The notes under the pieces are model-generated. The model searched no databases, was not told where the DNA came from, and saw only the letters and a program-made list of their open reading frames with translations. Position numbers and translations under genes: made by a program. A DNA stretch of 5,506 bases from Actinomycetota bacterium (GTDB lineage: Bacteria > Actinomycetota > Actinomycetes > Streptosporangiales > Streptosporangiaceae), in assembly GCA_003140115.1 (NCBI GenBank), contig PLIQ01000001.1:1-5506 (forward strand), in the 5' to 3' direction. Below, in pieces: positions 551-5,506 of the stretch (position 1 is the first letter of the stretch; every line of letters starts with the position of its first letter).

Positions 551-775
551 CTAGCGGACGAGCCCGCCCGCCGGCCGGAGGAATTCCGGGTCCAGGTCCC
601 GCCGGCCGACGCCGGTCAGCCGGCGAGTGCTCCTAGACAGCCGGTCGGGCGCCTCGCCGGCCAGTGTGTAGCGGCGGTCTTCGCGACGGACCGCGATCGC
701 GATCGCCGTGATGACCACCATCACCAGTCCTCCGAGGAAGACAGAGACTGCTGTTACGACTACGACACCGGCCAT
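551..775 (-). CDS. Small single-span membrane protein, unknown function
   Basis: This 74-residue protein starts at an ATG (complement of 773-775) with a clear ribosome site, GGAGG, five bases upstream (complement of 781-785). Residues 3-29 are a continuous run of Val, Ala, Ile, Leu and Gly and form one transmembrane helix. The cluster RREDRR follows at 30-35, predicting a short outside N-terminus and a basic cytoplasmic tail by the positive-inside rule. The tail (36-74) is Arg- and Asp-rich and probably partly disordered. I see no catalytic motif or signal-peptidase site. Small proteins of this shape are common in Streptomyces and usually lack a known function. It is divergent from the GntR gene and shows no evident link to the peptide locus. 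Confidence 0.7.
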   Translation of the reverse strand: MAGVVVVTAVSVFLGGLVMVVITAIAIAVRREDRRYTLAGEAPDRLSRSTRRLTGVGRRDLDPEFLRPAGGLVR

Positions 776-1178: not shown

Positions 1179-1988
1179 ATGGGAAGCCCGATGTACCGGC
1201 AGATCGCCGAAGATCTGCGGGCGCAGATCGAGTCCGGCGGACTCGAGCCTGGCCAGCAGTTGAGGACCGAGCTTGAGTTGCGGGAGCGCTACGGAGCCTC
1301 GCGGAACACCGTCCGCGACGCGATCAAGTGGCTTACCAGCCTCGGCCTGGTCGAAACGAAACCGGGTCAGGGCACCTTCGTAGTCCAGACAATCGACCCG
1401 TTCGTCACCACGCTGACTGAGGATCCTCGGAGCGGGCTCGGCGGCGGCGAGGGCACCAGCTACCTGTCGGAAGTGAGCGAGCGGGACAGGAAGCCATCCA
1501 TCAGCCCGCTCCAGGTCGAGATCCAGGAAGCCTCGGACGATATGGCTATCACGCTGGGGATCCCCAAGGGCGCCGAGGTCATCAGCCGTCACGAGCGGCG
1601 CTTTATTGATGGCACTCCCTGGTCGATGCAGACCTCCTACTACCCCATGGAGTTCGCCGACCGCGGAGCGGAGCGACTCAGGAGTGCCCGAAATATAGAA
1701 GAAGGAACCGTAGGTTACTTGGCTGAGACGCTCCACATCCGGCAGATCGGCTATAGCGACAGGATCACTGTGCGTGCGCCGAATCCAGTCGAGGCGGACT
1801 TCTTCAAACTGCCTTCCGACGGCCGTATCCCGATGTACGAGATAACCAGGACGGCATACGACGGTAACGGGCAGCCGATGCGTGTCACCGTGACGGTCTA
1901 CCCTACGGACCGGAATCAGTTCATCGTGAACGTTGGAGAAGTCCCGGATCCCAAGTCTCCTGTTGATGGGGGCTTAGCGCCGACCTGA
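1179..1988 (+). CDS. GntR-family (HutC/UTRA type) transcriptional regulator
   Basis: This 269-residue cytoplasmic DNA-binding protein starts at ATG 1179, four bases after AGGAGG (1169-1174). A later ATG at 1191 is too far from that site. Residues 3-70 are a GntR winged helix: YRQIAEDLRAQIESG, then PGQQL, then LRERYGASRNTVRDAIKWL, where SRNTVRDA is the recognition helix, then GLVETKPGQGTFV as the wing. Residues about 105-250 match the UTRA ligand-binding fold of the HutC subgroup, with the typical GAEVISRHERRFIDGTPW and a C-terminal MYEITRTAYDGNGQPM. UTRA domains bind small effectors such as sugars, amino acids or histidine-derived compounds; the effector here is unknown. The length is normal for the family. 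A strong hairpin overlaps the stop codon, so it is probably transcribed alone. It may control itself and the acetyltransferase/peptide genes after it, through dyads at 1045 and 2054. Confidence 0.93.
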   Translation: MGSPMYRQIAEDLRAQIESGGLEPGQQLRTELELRERYGASRNTVRDAIKWLTSLGLVETKPGQGTFVVQTIDPFVTTLTEDPRSGLGGGEGTSYLSEVSERDRKPSISPLQVEIQEASDDMAITLGIPKGAEVISRHERRFIDGTPWSMQTSYYPMEFADRGAERLRSARNIEEGTVGYLAETLHIRQIGYSDRITVRAPNPVEADFFKLPSDGRIPMYEITRTAYDGNGQPMRVTVTVYPTDRNQFIVNVGEVPDPKSPVDGGLAPT

Positions 1989-2025
1989 ATCTCCTATCCA
2001 AGACTCCCGGGATAGGAGATTCAGG
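1984..2025 (+). terminator. Strong hairpin terminator after the GntR gene
   Basis: CCTGAATCTCCTATCC (1984-1999) pairs perfectly with GGATAGGAGATTCAGG (2010-2025) across a 10-base loop, and ATTTTAC follows. The 16-bp perfect stem with a short T run fits an intrinsic terminator. It overlaps the regulator's stop codon (1986-1988). Being symmetrical, it would also act on transcripts entering from the right, although the A/T tail favours the plus strand. Confidence 0.85.
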
Positions 2026-2082: not shown

Positions 2083-2253
2083 GCGGCGCTCACGCGTTAT
2101 GGATGTCAATGGCTGTCAACACAGCTAGGAAACTCAAATTGGAGTCGAGCGGACTGCCTTCTCGTCTTTCGAGTGTATCGCTGTCGGTACGCCGCATACT
2201 GCCTTGGTCTGGTCTAGCCAGGGCCGGCCTGGATCCGCAGCAGGTCTCTCCCG

Positions 2254-2370
2254 GTGCGGCACTCCAGCAAGGAGAACTTCATTCGTTTCGTCCGGTACGA
2301 CCTGGTACTTCGCCGCATGACTCGATGCGGCCAGGCCTACAGGCATGGCCGGCTACGGGCGGAGTGGTAA
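2254..2370 (+). CDS. Possible 38-residue protein overlapping the GNAT start
   Basis: I do not recognise this product. From GTG 2254 the frame reads a basic, aromatic peptide including FIRFVRYDLVLRRMTRCGQA and ends at TAA 2368-2370, sharing GTGGTAA with the GTG start of the acetyltransferase. Two things support it. By my count about 30 of 38 codons end in G or C, against about half in the acetyltransferase frame over the same bases. The overlap is also of the kind that couples translation. Against it, no good ribosome site precedes GTG 2254. AAGGAG (2269-2274) would instead serve an ATT at 2281, a very rare start, giving 29 residues. It may be a real small gene, a remnant whose ATG became ATT, or chance. 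Confidence 0.35.
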   Translation: MRHSSKENFIRFVRYDLVLRRMTRCGQAYRHGRLRAEW

Positions 2371-3011
2371 CAGCCCCGTTGCATATCGCGCAAGCAAACG
2401 CACAGCACCTGGACGCCGTGCTCGACCTCATCGACGACGCGAGAAGTTGGCTGTGGACCATGGATACGGACCAGTGGGAGGAACCGTGGCCGACGGCCGC
2501 AGCACGCGACGCGAGGGTCCTTAAAGGATTGCAGAACGGGAAGACCTGGATCGTTTGGGACGGCGGCATCGCGGCGGCCACGGTCACGATCGCGACGGCA
2601 CACAACCCGGCTGTCTGGTCGGAGCCTACATGTACATGTGACCTAACTGAACGGGCCGTCTACGTACACCGGCTGATAACTGCGAGAAAGTACGCGGGCT
2701 GCGGATTGGGTGCAGAGCTAATCAACTGGGCCGGCTTGCGCGGTCGCCGAAAGAATCGTGCCAGAAAGATCAGGATCGATGTGTGGAGTACCAACACGGG
2801 ACTGCACGACTACTACGTGAGCAAGGGGTTCAGGCCCTGCGGCCACTGCGCTGACCCGGATTACCCATCTGGCGCGCTCTTCGAGAAGCCAGTCGCGGAA
2901 ATAGTGGTGCCAAGATTCCCGAAGTTCACAGAAACCTCTGGCGACTCACAGCTCACAGAGCCCATCATCAACGTGGAGGAAACCGCCAAGTTCAACCTCG
3001 CTTCCATCTGA
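2364..3011 (+). CDS. GNAT-family N-acetyltransferase (intact copy)
   Basis: This 215-residue predicted cytoplasmic enzyme would transfer an acyl group, usually acetyl, from CoA to an amine. I place the start at GTG 2364. The frame is open back to 2103, but the extra 87 codons lack coding bias and domain sequence. The GNAT fold begins at LHIAQANAQHLDAV (residues 6-19). A beta-strand pair lies around 62-79 (TWIVWDGGIAAATVTI). The CoA-binding motif A follows VYVHRLIT as KYAGCGLGAELINWA (109-123), giving K-x-x-G-x-G where Arg or Gln is more usual. IRIDVWSTNTGLHDYYVSKGF (137-157) is the standard strand-helix of motif B. A tail of about 45 residues after SGALFEKPV (169-177) exceeds the minimal fold. 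A second, broken copy lies at 4691-5366. The substrate is unknown; an amine of the nearby Lys/Arg-containing peptides is possible but inferred. Confidence 0.88.
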   Translation: MVTAPLHIAQANAQHLDAVLDLIDDARSWLWTMDTDQWEEPWPTAAARDARVLKGLQNGKTWIVWDGGIAAATVTIATAHNPAVWSEPTCTCDLTERAVYVHRLITARKYAGCGLGAELINWAGLRGRRKNRARKIRIDVWSTNTGLHDYYVSKGFRPCGHCADPDYPSGALFEKPVAEIVVPRFPKFTETSGDSQLTEPIINVEETAKFNLASI

Positions 3012-3328
3012 CCTCCGTTCCTGGCTAGCCGACTCGGGAGAAGCCGCCCAGTCTAGTTTGTTGTGCCCATTTATAACTATTTGGCTACTTTTTCGCCTTC
3101 TGGGTGAACCGCCAGCCTGAGAATATCGGGGTAAGAGGCCTGCTCATCGACCGGATGGGTACTCGAACCGGGCCGTGGCGAATCGAGCGGGCAGTGCCGC
3201 AGTGGCGACGCTCGGTCGTGACGGCGGGGCCCCGGTGTCGGATACTCAAGACAAGAGGGGACGGCGAACTCGACCATAGCCACGCCCTAAGCCACTGTTA
3301 CGCGTGATCACAGAAAGGGGAATGTGCA
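3012..3328 (+). other. Intergenic region before peptide gene 1
   Basis: These 317 bases carry no convincing protein gene. A 67-codon frame (3104-3307) has no recognisable features and no clear ribosome site. The AT-rich patch at about 3060-3095 contains TATAAC (3072-3077) but lacks a matching -35 element. A weak promoter candidate lies at 3218-3246. I see no tRNA or other structured RNA. Confidence 0.5.
3218..3246 (+). promoter_or_regulatory. Weak candidate promoter for peptide gene 1
   Basis: GTGACG (3218-3223) and GATACT (3241-3246) match the vegetative -35 and -10 hexamers at four of six positions each, with an ideal 17-base spacer. They lie about 80 bases before the peptide ATG. Matches of this quality occur by chance, so this is a suggestion only. 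Confidence 0.25.
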
Positions 3329-3397
3329 ATGGCCAAGTTGCACGCACGTCCCTCGAACCAGTACCGGTACGAGCACTACGACCCCCAATTTGCTTAG
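3329..3397 (+). CDS. Micro-peptide 1 (22 residues), candidate modified-peptide precursor
   Basis: I know no described family for this product. ATG 3329 follows AGAAAGGGG (3312-3320) with eight bases between. The peptide is MAKLHARPSNQYRYEHYDP followed by QFA, ending at TAG 3395-3397. A copy at 4529-4594 shares the first 19 residues, while the two genes differ there only at silent codon positions, so translation and selection on the protein are strongly supported. It has no signal peptide or membrane segment. The N-terminal half is basic (K3, R7). The C-terminal half is rich in residues that enzymes commonly modify: Asn, three Tyr, two His, Asp and Pro. It lies between an acetyltransferase and a 2-oxoglutarate oxygenase, which suggests a precursor peptide. 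A regulatory or arrest peptide for the gene downstream is the main alternative, since a hairpin follows. Confidence 0.85.
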   Translation: MAKLHARPSNQYRYEHYDPQFA

Positions 3398-3459
3398 CCG
3401 ACCAGGGGATGAGACGGTCGATCCCGCCGCTGAGGATTGATCTTCATACCGCGTAGTCA

Positions 3460-3495
3460 ACGATGCTGCCTGCGCTGGAACGCAGGCAGCATCGT
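3460..3495 (+). terminator. Perfect 15-bp hairpin between peptide 1 and the oxygenase
   Basis: ACGATGCTGCCTGCG (3460-3474) and CGCAGGCAGCATCGT (3481-3495) pair perfectly around the 6-base loop CTGGAA. GTAG (3453-3456) and CTAC (3501-3504) can extend it beyond a small internal loop. No T run follows, which is usual for actinobacterial hairpin terminators. It starts 62 bases after the peptide stop and ends about 50 bases before the possible oxygenase ATG. It could terminate a short peptide transcript, cap it with a stable 3' end while letting some transcription through, or act as an attenuator. Confidence 0.75.
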
Positions 3496-3564
3496 AGCTG
3501 CTACCACGACGTATCCGCTGGTCAGTTGGGCACTCGGGGGAACCATGCATCTGCCAAGTAACGC

Positions 3565-4230
3565 TTGGATGCGCTGGCTGTGTCGTTGAGTTTCGGCTGG
3601 ACGACATTCGACGTGAGCAGCCGGCTCCCGGTCGGCTGGAAGCAAGACATCGCGACAGTCGCGGTCCAGGCCGATTTCCGGGAATTCCCGCGCACGCCGA
3701 TCTTGTCCCGGGAGTCAGAGGATGTGGCACGTATTTCGCGGGGCCGGGTGCACGCTAGCGAGGTACGGCAGCGCCTGCCCTGGCTCTACCACTTTTACCG
3801 CGGGTACTTTCTCCAGCTGGCCAGGGAGACCTCTGGCGAATCTGTCGTTGCCGCGCTCGATGACCGCTACGGCGTCGTCCTGAATGTTCAGCGCGGGACC
3901 GCGATGCGGTTTGAATGCCATGTCGATTCGAATCCGCTGACAGGCCTCCTCTTCTGCACCGAACACCCGGCGGGAACCGGCGGCGAACTCGTATTCGCGC
4001 ACGATCCGGCCGCGTCTGACGTCGATGCGGTGGAGAAGGACTGCTCGGTCCTCCGGCCGCATGTGGGCCATTTGATTTTCTTCGAAGGCAGGGAGCACCC
4101 GCACTATGCGCGTCCTCTGCTGACGGAAGCGCACGTGCGGATCGTGGCGGTGATGAACTTCTACACCGAGTCCTGTCCGGAATCTACTCGTCCACCTGAA
4201 CTGAACCGCCATCTCTTCGGCCGCACCTGA
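3565..4230 (+). CDS. Fe(II)/2-oxoglutarate-dependent oxygenase (prolyl-hydroxylase-like)
   Basis: This predicted cytoplasmic non-haem iron oxygenase would couple 2-oxoglutarate decarboxylation to hydroxylation of a substrate. Numbered from TTG 3565 (221 residues), the iron triad is H119-x-D121 in FECHVDSNPLTG and H180 in HPHYARPL. R192 in VRIVAVMNFY is placed to bind 2-oxoglutarate. Between them lie the expected strands TGLLFCTE and GGELVFAHD, plus GHLIFFEG. Residues 1-110 are a less conserved substrate-recognition part. The start is uncertain. A stop at 3559-3561 limits the frame to TTG 3565, GTG 3580 or later starts, none with a good ribosome site. ATG 3545 has an excellent one (GGGGGA) but is one base out of frame and stops at 3587-3589, so a lost base or a frameshift is possible. 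Its position between two copies of one peptide gene makes that peptide the obvious candidate substrate. Confidence 0.85.
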   Translation: MDALAVSLSFGWTTFDVSSRLPVGWKQDIATVAVQADFREFPRTPILSRESEDVARISRGRVHASEVRQRLPWLYHFYRGYFLQLARETSGESVVAALDDRYGVVLNVQRGTAMRFECHVDSNPLTGLLFCTEHPAGTGGELVFAHDPAASDVDAVEKDCSVLRPHVGHLIFFEGREHPHYARPLLTEAHVRIVAVMNFYTESCPESTRPPELNRHLFGRT

Positions 4231-4241
4231 GGACCCGCGCC

Positions 4242-4313
4242 ATGTCGTCCGGTGAACAGTGGGAACAGTACCGGGCTGCGGGAAGCCAGGACTCCCAGTG
4301 GCACACCAAGTAA
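4242..4313 (+). CDS. Possible 23-residue peptide after the oxygenase
   Basis: I do not recognise this. ATG 4242 follows GAGGA (4229-4233), which overlaps the oxygenase stop codon at 4228-4230, with eight bases between. The frame runs to TAA 4311-4313 and reads a polar peptide rich in Gln and Trp, including GEQWEQYRAAG and a C-terminal QWHTK. About 18 of 23 codons end in G or C. The ribosome site and tight spacing suggest coupling to the oxygenase. No second copy exists in the window, so unlike the 21/22-residue peptides it has no comparative support and may be chance. Confidence 0.4.
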   Translation: MSSGEQWEQYRAAGSQDSQWHTK

Positions 4314-4398
4314 GCAGGCCTCGCTAGACGGCAGGCAGCCTTCCTTATCGTCAAGCAGGAGGCCGCCATACAAAAGACTCCGGCAATCGCCCCGGCTT

Positions 4399-4435
4399 GT
4401 AAGGCGGCGGCCGGACAAGGCCATTCCGGCCTTAC
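4399..4435 (+). terminator. Hairpin upstream of peptide gene 2
   Basis: GTAAGG (4399-4404) plus CCGGA (4411-4415), with a 6-base bulge CGGCGG between them, pair with TCCGGCCTTAC (4425-4435) around a 9-base loop. The nested version GGCCGGA/TCCGGCC also forms. It may end the oxygenase transcript, so that peptide gene 2 would need its own promoter. There is no T run. Confidence 0.45.
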
Positions 4436-4528
4436 AGCCCGGAGATAAACTTCCGGACCGCACAGTTGAATTGGCAAACCAACCGAAGCGCTCCCCGTGG
4501 AGCGACGACCAGAAAGGGGGCGAGCGCG

Positions 4529-4594
4529 ATGGCAAAGCTGCATGCGCGTCCCTCTAACCAGTATCGATACGAGCACTACGACCCCCGCTTCTAG
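4529..4594 (+). CDS. Micro-peptide 2 (21 residues), near-identical to micro-peptide 1
   Basis: ATG 4529 follows AGAAAGGGGG (4511-4520) with eight bases between, the same site and spacing as peptide gene 1. The product shares residues 1-19 with micro-peptide 1, then reads RF before TAG 4592-4594, where the other reads QFA. Over the shared 19 codons the genes differ at seven (codons 2, 4, 5, 6, 9, 12 and 13), all silent. Phe21 is also kept through a silent change. Such a pattern needs selection on the peptide itself and shows that the duplication is not recent. The neighbours are the oxygenase upstream and the broken acetyltransferase downstream, the mirror of the order around peptide 1. Its role is unknown: precursor of a modified peptide, or regulatory peptide, as argued for copy 1. 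Confidence 0.85.
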   Translation: MAKLHARPSNQYRYEHYDPRF

Positions 4595-4618: not shown

Positions 4619-4670
4619 GTCGGCGCTGGCTGGTATACACAGCGCCGACGGCCAAGGCGTCGTCGGCGCT
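4619..4670 (+). promoter_or_regulatory. Mutually exclusive hairpins after peptide 2
   Basis: Three arms can form two competing stems. GTCGGCGCTG (4619-4628) pairs perfectly with CAGCGCCGAC (4640-4649) across 11 bases. AGCGCCGACG (4641-4650) pairs perfectly with CGTCGGCGCT (4661-4670) across 10 bases. The middle arm can join only one at a time. The first arm begins 24 bases after the peptide stop, close enough for a stalled ribosome to affect folding. The second stem ends about 20 bases before the GTG of the broken acetyltransferase and could hide its start. This is the geometry of an attenuator or translational switch, although it may simply be a two-stem terminator. Confidence 0.55.
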
Positions 4671-4690: not shown

Positions 4691-5366
4691 GTGATCATAT
4701 CGGTGGGAAGGTATCCGTTTGTCCTAAGCCTTGCTGTGCCTGGGGATTTGGACAAAGTAGCCGGACTTGTCCGGGAAGCCGCTGGCTGGCTGCGTAGCGA
4801 GGGCATCGATAAGTGGCAGGAATTGTGACCCGACCCGGCCGGACAGCGAGAGCGCATCCTGAATGACCTGCTCAAAGGCAAGACATGGCTGCTGCGAGAC
4901 GGGGAGACCATCGCTGCGTCCATCACGATCGACATGGATGAACCCCTGGACGTGAACGAGTGTCCCGTCTGGCCGCCGGAGGAAAGCCAGCGGCCTGTGC
5001 TGTGCGTACGACGAGTCATCGTTGGCAGGCGCTACGCCCGACTCGGGCTGAGTGCCGCGCTGCTGGACTGGGCAGCCGACGTGGCGAAAAAGAGACCACG
5101 GAGCCGAACTGATCCGTATCGACGTGCGGACGACCAACCTGAAGCTGCACGCCTATTACGAAGGACAGCGCTTTACCCGCTGCCCGGATCTGCGAGGGCT
5201 TGGCGACACCCCGTCCCAGGCGCTCTTCGAGCGCCAGGTGGACGTGCCAGGGTCAGACTTCACCAAGTTGTTCATCGCGGAAGAAGCCCAGGCACGGCAC
5301 CCGGCGAATGACCGATCATTCCCGATCAGGGACTCGCGATTTTGGACCAAGCCGCCGACGAGGTAA
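4691..5366 (+). pseudogene. GNAT N-acetyltransferase, broken second copy
   Basis: This is a relative of the acetyltransferase at 2364-3011, with two inactivating changes. From GTG 4691 the frame reads a GNAT N-terminus (LSLAVPGDLDKVAGLVREAA) and meets TGA at 4826-4828, exactly where the intact copy has Trp42 (EPWP against EL-stop-P), so a TGG-to-TGA change is likely. It continues in frame (GKTWLLRDGETIAASITI) to the run of five A at 5087-5091. There one extra base shifts the rest into the frame reading IRIDVRTTNLKLHAYYEGQRF and SQALFERQV, ending at TAA 5364-5366. Repairing both gives 224 residues, close to the other copy's 215. The CoA loop reads RYARLGLSAAL, with Arg where the first motif A Gly belongs, a third sign of decay. 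The last 41 bases overlap the convergent mnmA end. Confidence 0.85.
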
Positions 5367-5506
5367 CCGTGGACGTGCCGCTGATCGTAGCGCTGCCCAG
5401 GACGGTGTGGCCGTCGTAGAGGACCGCGGCCTGACCCTTGGCTATGCCGCGGGCGGGGTGGTGGAGGCGGAGGCGCAGGTTGCCTTCGTCCAGCCAGGCG
5501 GTGCAG
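5326..5506 (-). CDS. mnmA: tRNA 2-thiouridylase MnmA, C-terminal fragment
   Basis: Only the last 59 complete codons lie in the window; the rest is beyond its right edge. The minus strand reads DEGNLRLRLHHPARGIAKGQ, then AAVLYDGHTVLGSATIS, and stops at TGA (complement of 5326-5328). The pattern of a short strand, P-x-R-G-I-A-x-G-Q-A-A-V-L-Y-D-G, then V-L-G-S-A-T-I is the C-terminal beta-barrel of MnmA, the enzyme that thiolates U34 of Lys, Glu and Gln tRNAs using sulfur relayed from a cysteine desulfurase. The catalytic cysteines and ATP site are not visible. About 17 residues follow the barrel as a variable tail, within the stretch that overlaps the GNAT pseudogene. A distinct MnmA-like paralogue cannot be excluded from this fragment. 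Confidence 0.7.
   Translation of the reverse strand, partial: CTAWLDEGNLRLRLHHPARGIAKGQAAVLYDGHTVLGSATISGTSTVTSSAAWSKIASP

Follow-up and report, generated by a model that had tools for sequence, protein, structure and literature searches.

Peptide genes of some 20 codons with a conserved core in one actinobacterial order and in viral contigs

Two peptide genes in a GntR/UTRA-linked locus

The window, as we call the whole stretch of 5,506 nt analysed, contains two open reading frames that encode nearly the same peptide of about 20 residues. Genes of this size are too short for gene finders and are missed by gene callers. Along the window there are, in this order, the gene for a small membrane protein (minus strand), those for a GntR/UTRA regulator and a GNAT acetyltransferase, the first peptide gene, an oxygenase gene, the second peptide gene, a broken GNAT gene and the 3′ end of mnmA (minus strand), with the following features:

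551–775, minus strand: small membrane protein with RREDR as its last residues; divergent from the regulator gene
1179–1988, plus strand: GntR/UTRA regulator (PF00392 and PF07702)
1985–2024, plus strand: hairpin followed by a run of T, terminator-like (z -5.8), after the regulator gene
2103–3011, plus strand: GNAT acetyltransferase (PF00583), with relatives in loci L017, L019 and L021
3312–3320, plus strand: AGAAAGGGG, probable ribosome-binding site of copy 1
3329–3397, plus strand: peptide gene copy 1, MAKLHARPSNQYRYEHYDPQFA
3460–3495, plus strand: strong hairpin, 3′ of copy 1 and 5′ of the oxygenase gene
3565–4230, plus strand: 2OG-Fe(II) oxygenase, between both peptide genes; the start may be 3580
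4511–4519, plus strand: AGAAAGGGG, probable ribosome-binding site of copy 2
4529–4594, plus strand: peptide gene copy 2, MAKLHARPSNQYRYEHYDPRF
4619–4649, plus strand: weaker hairpin, 3′ of copy 2
4691–5366, plus strand: broken GNAT gene with an interrupted frame, its likeness to the intact one judged by eye
5326–5505, minus strand: C-terminal end of mnmA (PF20258), convergent with the peptide genes

Both peptide frames exist as the preliminary description had claimed, and their products have 19 residues in common. Seven of these 19 codons (2, 4, 5, 6, 9, 12 and 13) differ, by one nucleotide each, and every change is silent, as had also been reported (seven synonymous and no nonsynonymous differences by the Nei-Gojobori method); in a simulation with seven randomly placed changes, all were silent in 2 of 200,000 trials. 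The motif AGAAAGGGG precedes both copies, and the spacing, previously given as identical, is 8 nt to the ATG in copy 1 and 9 nt in copy 2. The surroundings of the copies had been described as not obviously similar, and their DNA likeness is indeed essentially a single 77-bp stretch covering peptide and ribosome site (3311–3386 vs. 4510–4586; 83 % identity, blastn E 2e-18), the other three blastn pieces being of 10–28 bp with E of 0.009 or worse. The hairpin 3′ of copy 1 is very stable (-31.3 kcal/mol, z -5.7, equalled by 0 of 200 shuffles) and probably acts as a terminator or processing signal; that 3′ of copy 2 is less so (z -2.4, equalled by 3 of 200 shuffles). No RNA family or tRNA was found in the window at gathering scores.

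The start of the intact GNAT gene is uncertain and, from comparison with its relatives, may lie at ca. 2364. Two pieces of the broken GNAT gene obtained no score against Pfam; this second gene is broken, yet the peptide copy that precedes it is intact. The small membrane protein has one hydrophobic stretch and an ending of the type REDR...G.AP, and proteins like it were recognized by motif in L017, L018 (two), L023, L024 and L026, and by eye also in L001, L019 and L020. The oxygenase has the complete HxD...H residues; comparison of its predicted fold, from a model of middling quality, says only that it is a 2OG-oxygenase, nearest to BesD-type halogenases/hydroxylases and PHD2. It has at least 2158 relatives at E ≤0.001 among 2487 candidates, the best 120 mostly from jgi, ena and lgn; one, in Trebonia kvetii, was confirmed when GTDB contigs were scanned with a pattern, and tblastn searches of plasmid records matched neither the peptide nor the oxygenase. 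An IMG/VR contig contains an oxygenase relative with 52 % identity (L002:722–1399), followed by a gene that is P450-like by eye.

Distribution and conservation of the peptide family

No described relative was found, in agreement with the earlier remark that no described family was known to have this sequence. Searches with the peptide itself against Pfam, NCBIfam, PHROGs and the sequences of PDB were all negative. Its longer relatives did not exceed any curated cut-off in Pfam, NCBIfam or PADLOC (with nothing in PADLOC for proteins P0205 and P0121), and their weak signals were to DUF5988 (PF19450; 12.9–14.2 bits vs. a cut-off of 27) and phrog_33130 (E 0.1). Text searches of the literature with three overlapping stretches of the motif found no paper containing it, a literature search found no paper on DUF5988, and in two broader searches nothing among the papers listed was relevant by title or by the opening of the abstract.

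Homologues outside the window, on which the preliminary description had made its claim depend, were found in genomes of the order of T. kvetii and in IMG/VR contigs. A degenerate QYRYEHYD pattern matched 13 places in 10 of 345 genomes of this order, and a backward control pattern had no match in the table for the same genomes. An HMM built from 14 peptides matched 13 of the 345 at E ≤0.01, corresponding to the same 10 genomes, G049 and two weak partial matches. The latter, in G027 and G053 (E 0.001–0.006, 20–22 bits, partial coverage), were rejected; that in G027, by eye the better of the two, was taken as chance because it is antisense to a 393-residue RadA-like frame. The core PSxQYRYEHYDP was thus accepted in 11 of the 345 genomes; in the single convincing addition from the HMM, the QYRYEHYDP stretch differs at Q only. 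Neither a search of 394 sampled genomes of the class with the exact pattern nor one of 396 sampled genomes of the phylum with the HMM found any besides T. kvetii (G001) itself.

The host set comprises 14 loci with 16 peptides of 20–24 residues, the window included. In T. kvetii, the GntR/UTRA gene is followed by the peptide MAKFHARPSLQYRYEHYDPLAG, the oxygenase and then convergent mnmA. The GntR/UTRA gene is the most constant partner, upstream and on the same strand in 11 of the 14 loci; the contigs of L021, L025 and L027 stop at the peptide or within about 0.5 kb of it. Convergent mnmA closes 12 loci (recognized by eye from a partial frame in L022 and L026), with L020 stopping earlier and L044 having a different neighbour. 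The oxygenase occurs in two loci (window and L001), a GNAT in four (window, L017, L019 and L021), and MFS_3 in seven (L018, L020, L022, L023, L024, L025 in part, and L044; assigned with Pfam in L022, L024 and L044 and by eye or motif in the remaining ones). The MFS_3 exporters weakly resemble EntS, under the NCBIfam cut-off. No oxygenase, GNAT or MFS is visible in L026 or in L027, which is cut off near the peptide. An enzyme gene lies downstream of the peptide in the window, L001, L019 and L021, and there is no called same-strand gene between the peptide and convergent mnmA in L017, L018, L022, L023, L024 and L026.

Among 14 searched genomes of the family, mnmA was matched in 10 (all except G003, G005, G008 and G037), and neither regulator nor peptide was recognized in the ten mnmA flanks from these other genomes of the family. 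In G049 the peptide is on a different contig from mnmA; in G027 a GNAT is beside mnmA, but without a peptide there. T. kvetii and its kind are presumably soil organisms, and we assume the same habitat for the remaining hosts and viruses.

A scan of IMG/VR for YRYEHYDP identified 18 contigs, 13 of them distinct, which we treat as viral from their IMG/VR classing and from the head genes present in five types, many of the records being fragments. Six (L052, L055, L058, L060, L061 and L062) share one identical stretch. The viral frames stop 1–7 residues past the core in 17 of the 18 contigs and 53 residues past it in L057. A scrambled control of the same composition gave two matches, both with a serine for arginine permitted by the pattern and both inside frames of ca. 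200 residues, with 167–176 residues after the motif. Opening the R codon added L064 only, and opening the H codon L065 only, both of them long unrelated frames. The core thus tolerated no change in the IMG/VR scans, its codons being free to vary. Three viral N-termini are host-like, MAKFHARPSLQ (L051), MAKLHARPSNQ (L053) and MSKLHARPSLQ (L054), and others include MARRNPSPQ, VHEKPSQA and MDSHE.

The host-like viral peptides are among or beside tRNA genes in three large contigs, L080 (L051), L081 (L053) and L082 (L054). There are 19 tRNAs in the 20 kb around the peptide in L080 and 35 in L081, where PTH2 is its immediate upstream neighbour; in L082 a single tRNA gene lies to each side of the peptide. 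The one directly 5′ of the peptide gene in L082 (9580–9652) is a predicted viral tRNA whose anticodon (agga) has four bases. Five other types are near head or packaging genes (L047, L050, the L052 type, L056 and L063) and five are in neither setting (L046, L048, L049 and L057, where it is fused with or next to the second motif described below, and L059, of ambiguous context). The genes listed downstream of the peptide differ among viral types, and in the L052 and L056 types another frame begins at the end of the peptide ORF. A search at E 0.001 of 14 of the 18 viral records, many of them fragments, gave no UTRA or PF13640 match; the other four (L055, L058, L060 and L062) have the same peptide region as L052. 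Named phage genomes gave no tblastn match to a 20-residue query, a search of possibly low sensitivity. A peptidase-like gene (cysteine, by eye) precedes the peptide in L050 (3165–4046), where PHROGs also identified a peptidase, and in L056 (1232–1876), for which PHROGs had no match.

A second tiny motif, PR[FY]T[IV]PR[VTC]A[HN]C, occurs in short viral ORFs (L046:3651–3785, L049:3726–3836, L057:2839–3042 and L048:5217–5345), fused with or adjoining YRYEHYDP in L046, L049 and L057, and also in L048, where the first residue is changed. It appears without YRYEHYDP in seven further contigs (L090–L096), doubled within one ORF of L093. Proteins P0212, P0215, P0236, P0246 and P0267 contain it too.

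Protein databases were searched with the natural 42-residue frame around copy 2, yielding 84 proteins, and with an alignment of 15 natural frames, yielding 569 proteins at E ≤10 from 1885 candidates; the best 120 of these, 81 of them new, enter the set of 165 proteins described here, and 449 others are outside it. YRYEHYDP is present in all 165, which is no unbiased measure of variation because both searches were seeded with it and rely on shared words. Ahead of it, 160 of the 165 fit M/V-x-x-x-x-x-R-P-S-x-Q/E, and the tails after the core are of 1–55 residues (median 3), with 117 of 165 having at most seven. The core occurs twice within 48–68 residues in P0205, P0206, P0207 and P0209.

The earlier proposal of purifying selection on a translated product gains support beyond the two copies from 19 aligned peptides and from checks independent of the pattern, namely the HMM search of the order and the IMG/VR scans with the R or H codon opened. 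Across 19 codons, the alignment gave a pN/pS of 0.17; codons 12–19 gave a pS of 0.64 and a pN of 0, the latter being built in because the rows were chosen by a pattern for those codons. L021, which lies at a contig end and nearly duplicates L020, was left out of the alignment, as were those viral types with unalignable N-termini; the L018 frame, which extends past the tail, was trimmed at residue 21 in alignment A2. AGGAGG-like sites lie upstream of most relatives: five or six of the six bases matched in 15 of 18 upstream stretches examined vs. 209 of 3900 random ones. The family thus consists of separate small genes for peptides of ca. 20 residues under strong purifying selection, present in one actinobacterial order and in 13 distinct viral contigs.

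Three resemblances to host proteins were considered and dropped. LHARPS is similar to the phosphorylation site of HPr, but in relatives position 4 is L, F, R, Y or others and position 5 may be Y, F or E. Mimicry of a longer host protein was sought with the HMM at E 10 in G001, G010 and G021, which gave, besides the known loci, partial matches of 11–13 bits only. A likeness by eye to QYRYHVLDSP, in an N-terminal segment of LigA (L001 and L019), was taken as chance.

Possible roles of the peptide

The separate gene, its ribosome site, the selection on the protein, the free flanks, the modular placement and the doubling together argue for a motif that acts in trans on a nearly immutable partner. 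Our preferred reading, to which we give a probability of about 0.48, is that of a standalone micropeptide whose linear motif docks on a conserved factor used by both host and phage. The peptide itself is probably the product. Acting in trans and without modification, its core PSxQYRYEHYDP would dock as a short linear motif on a conserved partner in the cell, the N-terminus and tail serving mostly as handles. The host peptide would belong to a GntR/UTRA-linked locus in which GNAT, MFS_3 and 2OG-oxygenase are interchangeable, and phages would have the motif because the peptide manipulates or protects the same partner in infection. The differing viral N-termini and the doubled core in one protein suit such a motif; as expected of one, the core is fixed, the flanks are free and the core is sometimes repeated per chain.

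At a guess from the viral tRNA arrays, PTH2 and the mnmA neighbours, the partner might lie in translation or tRNA metabolism. This link may be an accident, because five viral types are near head genes, five are in neither setting and L044 is away from mnmA; the tRNA neighbours tell little because any gene inside a 10-kb tRNA array has them. Several observations speak against the preferred reading: an enzyme gene follows the peptide in the window, L001, L019 and L021, and in L052 and L056 another frame begins where the peptide ORF ends, both as for a leader peptide; host loci have tailoring- and export-like genes, as expected of a peptide natural product; and cellular matches are within a single order.

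The gene content of host loci would suit a RiPP precursor modified by the 2OG-oxygenase and GNAT, exported by MFS_3 and controlled by GntR/UTRA, since the tiny gene lies near an oxygenase with a complete HxD...H, near GNATs and near EntS-like MFS_3 exporters. In addition, Y-E-H resembles the Y-x-H stretch that P450s cross-link in some biarylitides, and two cores occur in one protein, as RiPP precursors may have. We nevertheless consider this explanation unlikely. No enzyme is constant (oxygenase in two, GNAT in four and MFS in seven of 14 loci) and the core is unchanged, whereas a RiPP precursor would have a dedicated modifying enzyme encoded in every locus (none is visible in L026); none of the neighbour proteins scanned is a RiPP-type modifying enzyme or protease; and as little as one residue may follow the conserved stretch. 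Viral copies without the oxygenase (0 of 14 records searched had a PF13640 match) or the regulator argue against a dependence of the peptide on these, and hence against a RiPP made by that enzyme.

It seems improbable that the peptide is a leader through which stalling of the ribosome at the core, or translational coupling, controls a neighbouring gene. Such a leader peptide calls for a co-directional gene directly downstream, which not every host locus has: six are without a called same-strand gene before mnmA, and the genes listed downstream vary among viral types. Two copies per protein are also hard to reconcile with an arrest site, and the codons are free to vary. The frequent lack of a gene behind the peptide thus argues against a leader, though some loci would permit one, as an enzyme gene follows in four (window, L001, L019 and L021) and the next frame begins at the ORF end in the L052 and L056 types. 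There are also hairpins 3′ of the stop, and the invariant stretch near the stop, between a free N-terminus and tail, ends in D-P, as do some arrest peptides.

Equally doubtful is a role as a signal peptide that the GntR/UTRA regulator would sense, the viral copies being mimics. The constancy of the regulator gene (11 of 14 loci, with the contigs of L021, L025 and L027 ending near the peptide) would fit this role, but UTRA domains are known for small ligands, MFS genes are in half of the loci only and, with no UTRA match in the 14 viral records searched, a viral copy would need the regulator of the host. Least probable of all, and in fact very unlikely, is a phage counter-defence or host-takeover peptide taken up by the bacterial chromosome and now priming or tuning defence: in several viral types the peptide is among tRNA genes and near late genes, and phage tRNAs are proposed in one report to evade tRNA-targeting defences (PMC10264068), but the six locus and peptide proteins scanned include no defence gene, the sole PADLOC match being a generic 2OG model, and the present data cannot separate this explanation from the preferred one.

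Returning to the docking micropeptide, we tentatively suggest that there is a class of micropeptides, leaderless and unmodified, with an invariant motif, PSxQYRYEHYDP, common to actinobacteria and unrelated phages. In both it would address a single conserved machine, for which the translation/tRNA apparatus is plausible, and phages would insert it into tRNA arrays or late operons; PR[FY]T[IV]PRxAHC might be a second member. The core has identical residues in bacterial chromosomes and in viral contigs whose gene neighbourhoods are quite dissimilar. Its binding partner must be almost immutable, and a single synthetic peptide and a lysate should suffice to find it. A pattern search is enough to detect micropeptides common to host and phage, and there may be entire classes of such genes that lack annotation.

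Comparison with known systems

The family DUF5988 (PF19450), of unknown function, has a profile whose positions 39–54 match the core below threshold in P0205 and P0206; the best score was 14.2 bits, under the gathering cut-off of 27 bits. The biarylitide precursors (bytA and relatives) are, like the genes described here, extremely small, evade gene finders and encode a Y-x-H stretch. Biarylitides are described as having a five-residue precursor and dedicated P450 enzymes (PMC13417212). The peptides described here differ in having 20–24 residues and free-standing viral copies, and the pairing of a pentapeptide gene with an adjacent cytochrome P450 was not seen, there being no P450 among the neighbour proteins scanned. 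In microcin C-type clusters, a tiny peptide gene also lies beside an MFS exporter and a GNAT; unlike them, the loci described here yielded no adenylating enzyme of the ThiF type in the proteins scanned, their accessory genes are interchangeable and there are viral copies.

The tiny ribosomal proteins bL37 and bS22 are likewise actinobacterial, easily overlooked and of about 20–30 residues. As core ribosomal proteins they should be widespread, whereas in the cellular genomes searched the peptide is in one order only, G001 being its sole bearer among the 394 class and 396 phylum genomes. The Stp peptide of phage T4 acts on a host complex that is linked to the cleavage of tRNA, and we know of no bacterial chromosomal twin of it. 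Stp resembles what is proposed here in being a phage peptide of some 20–30 residues that acts in trans.
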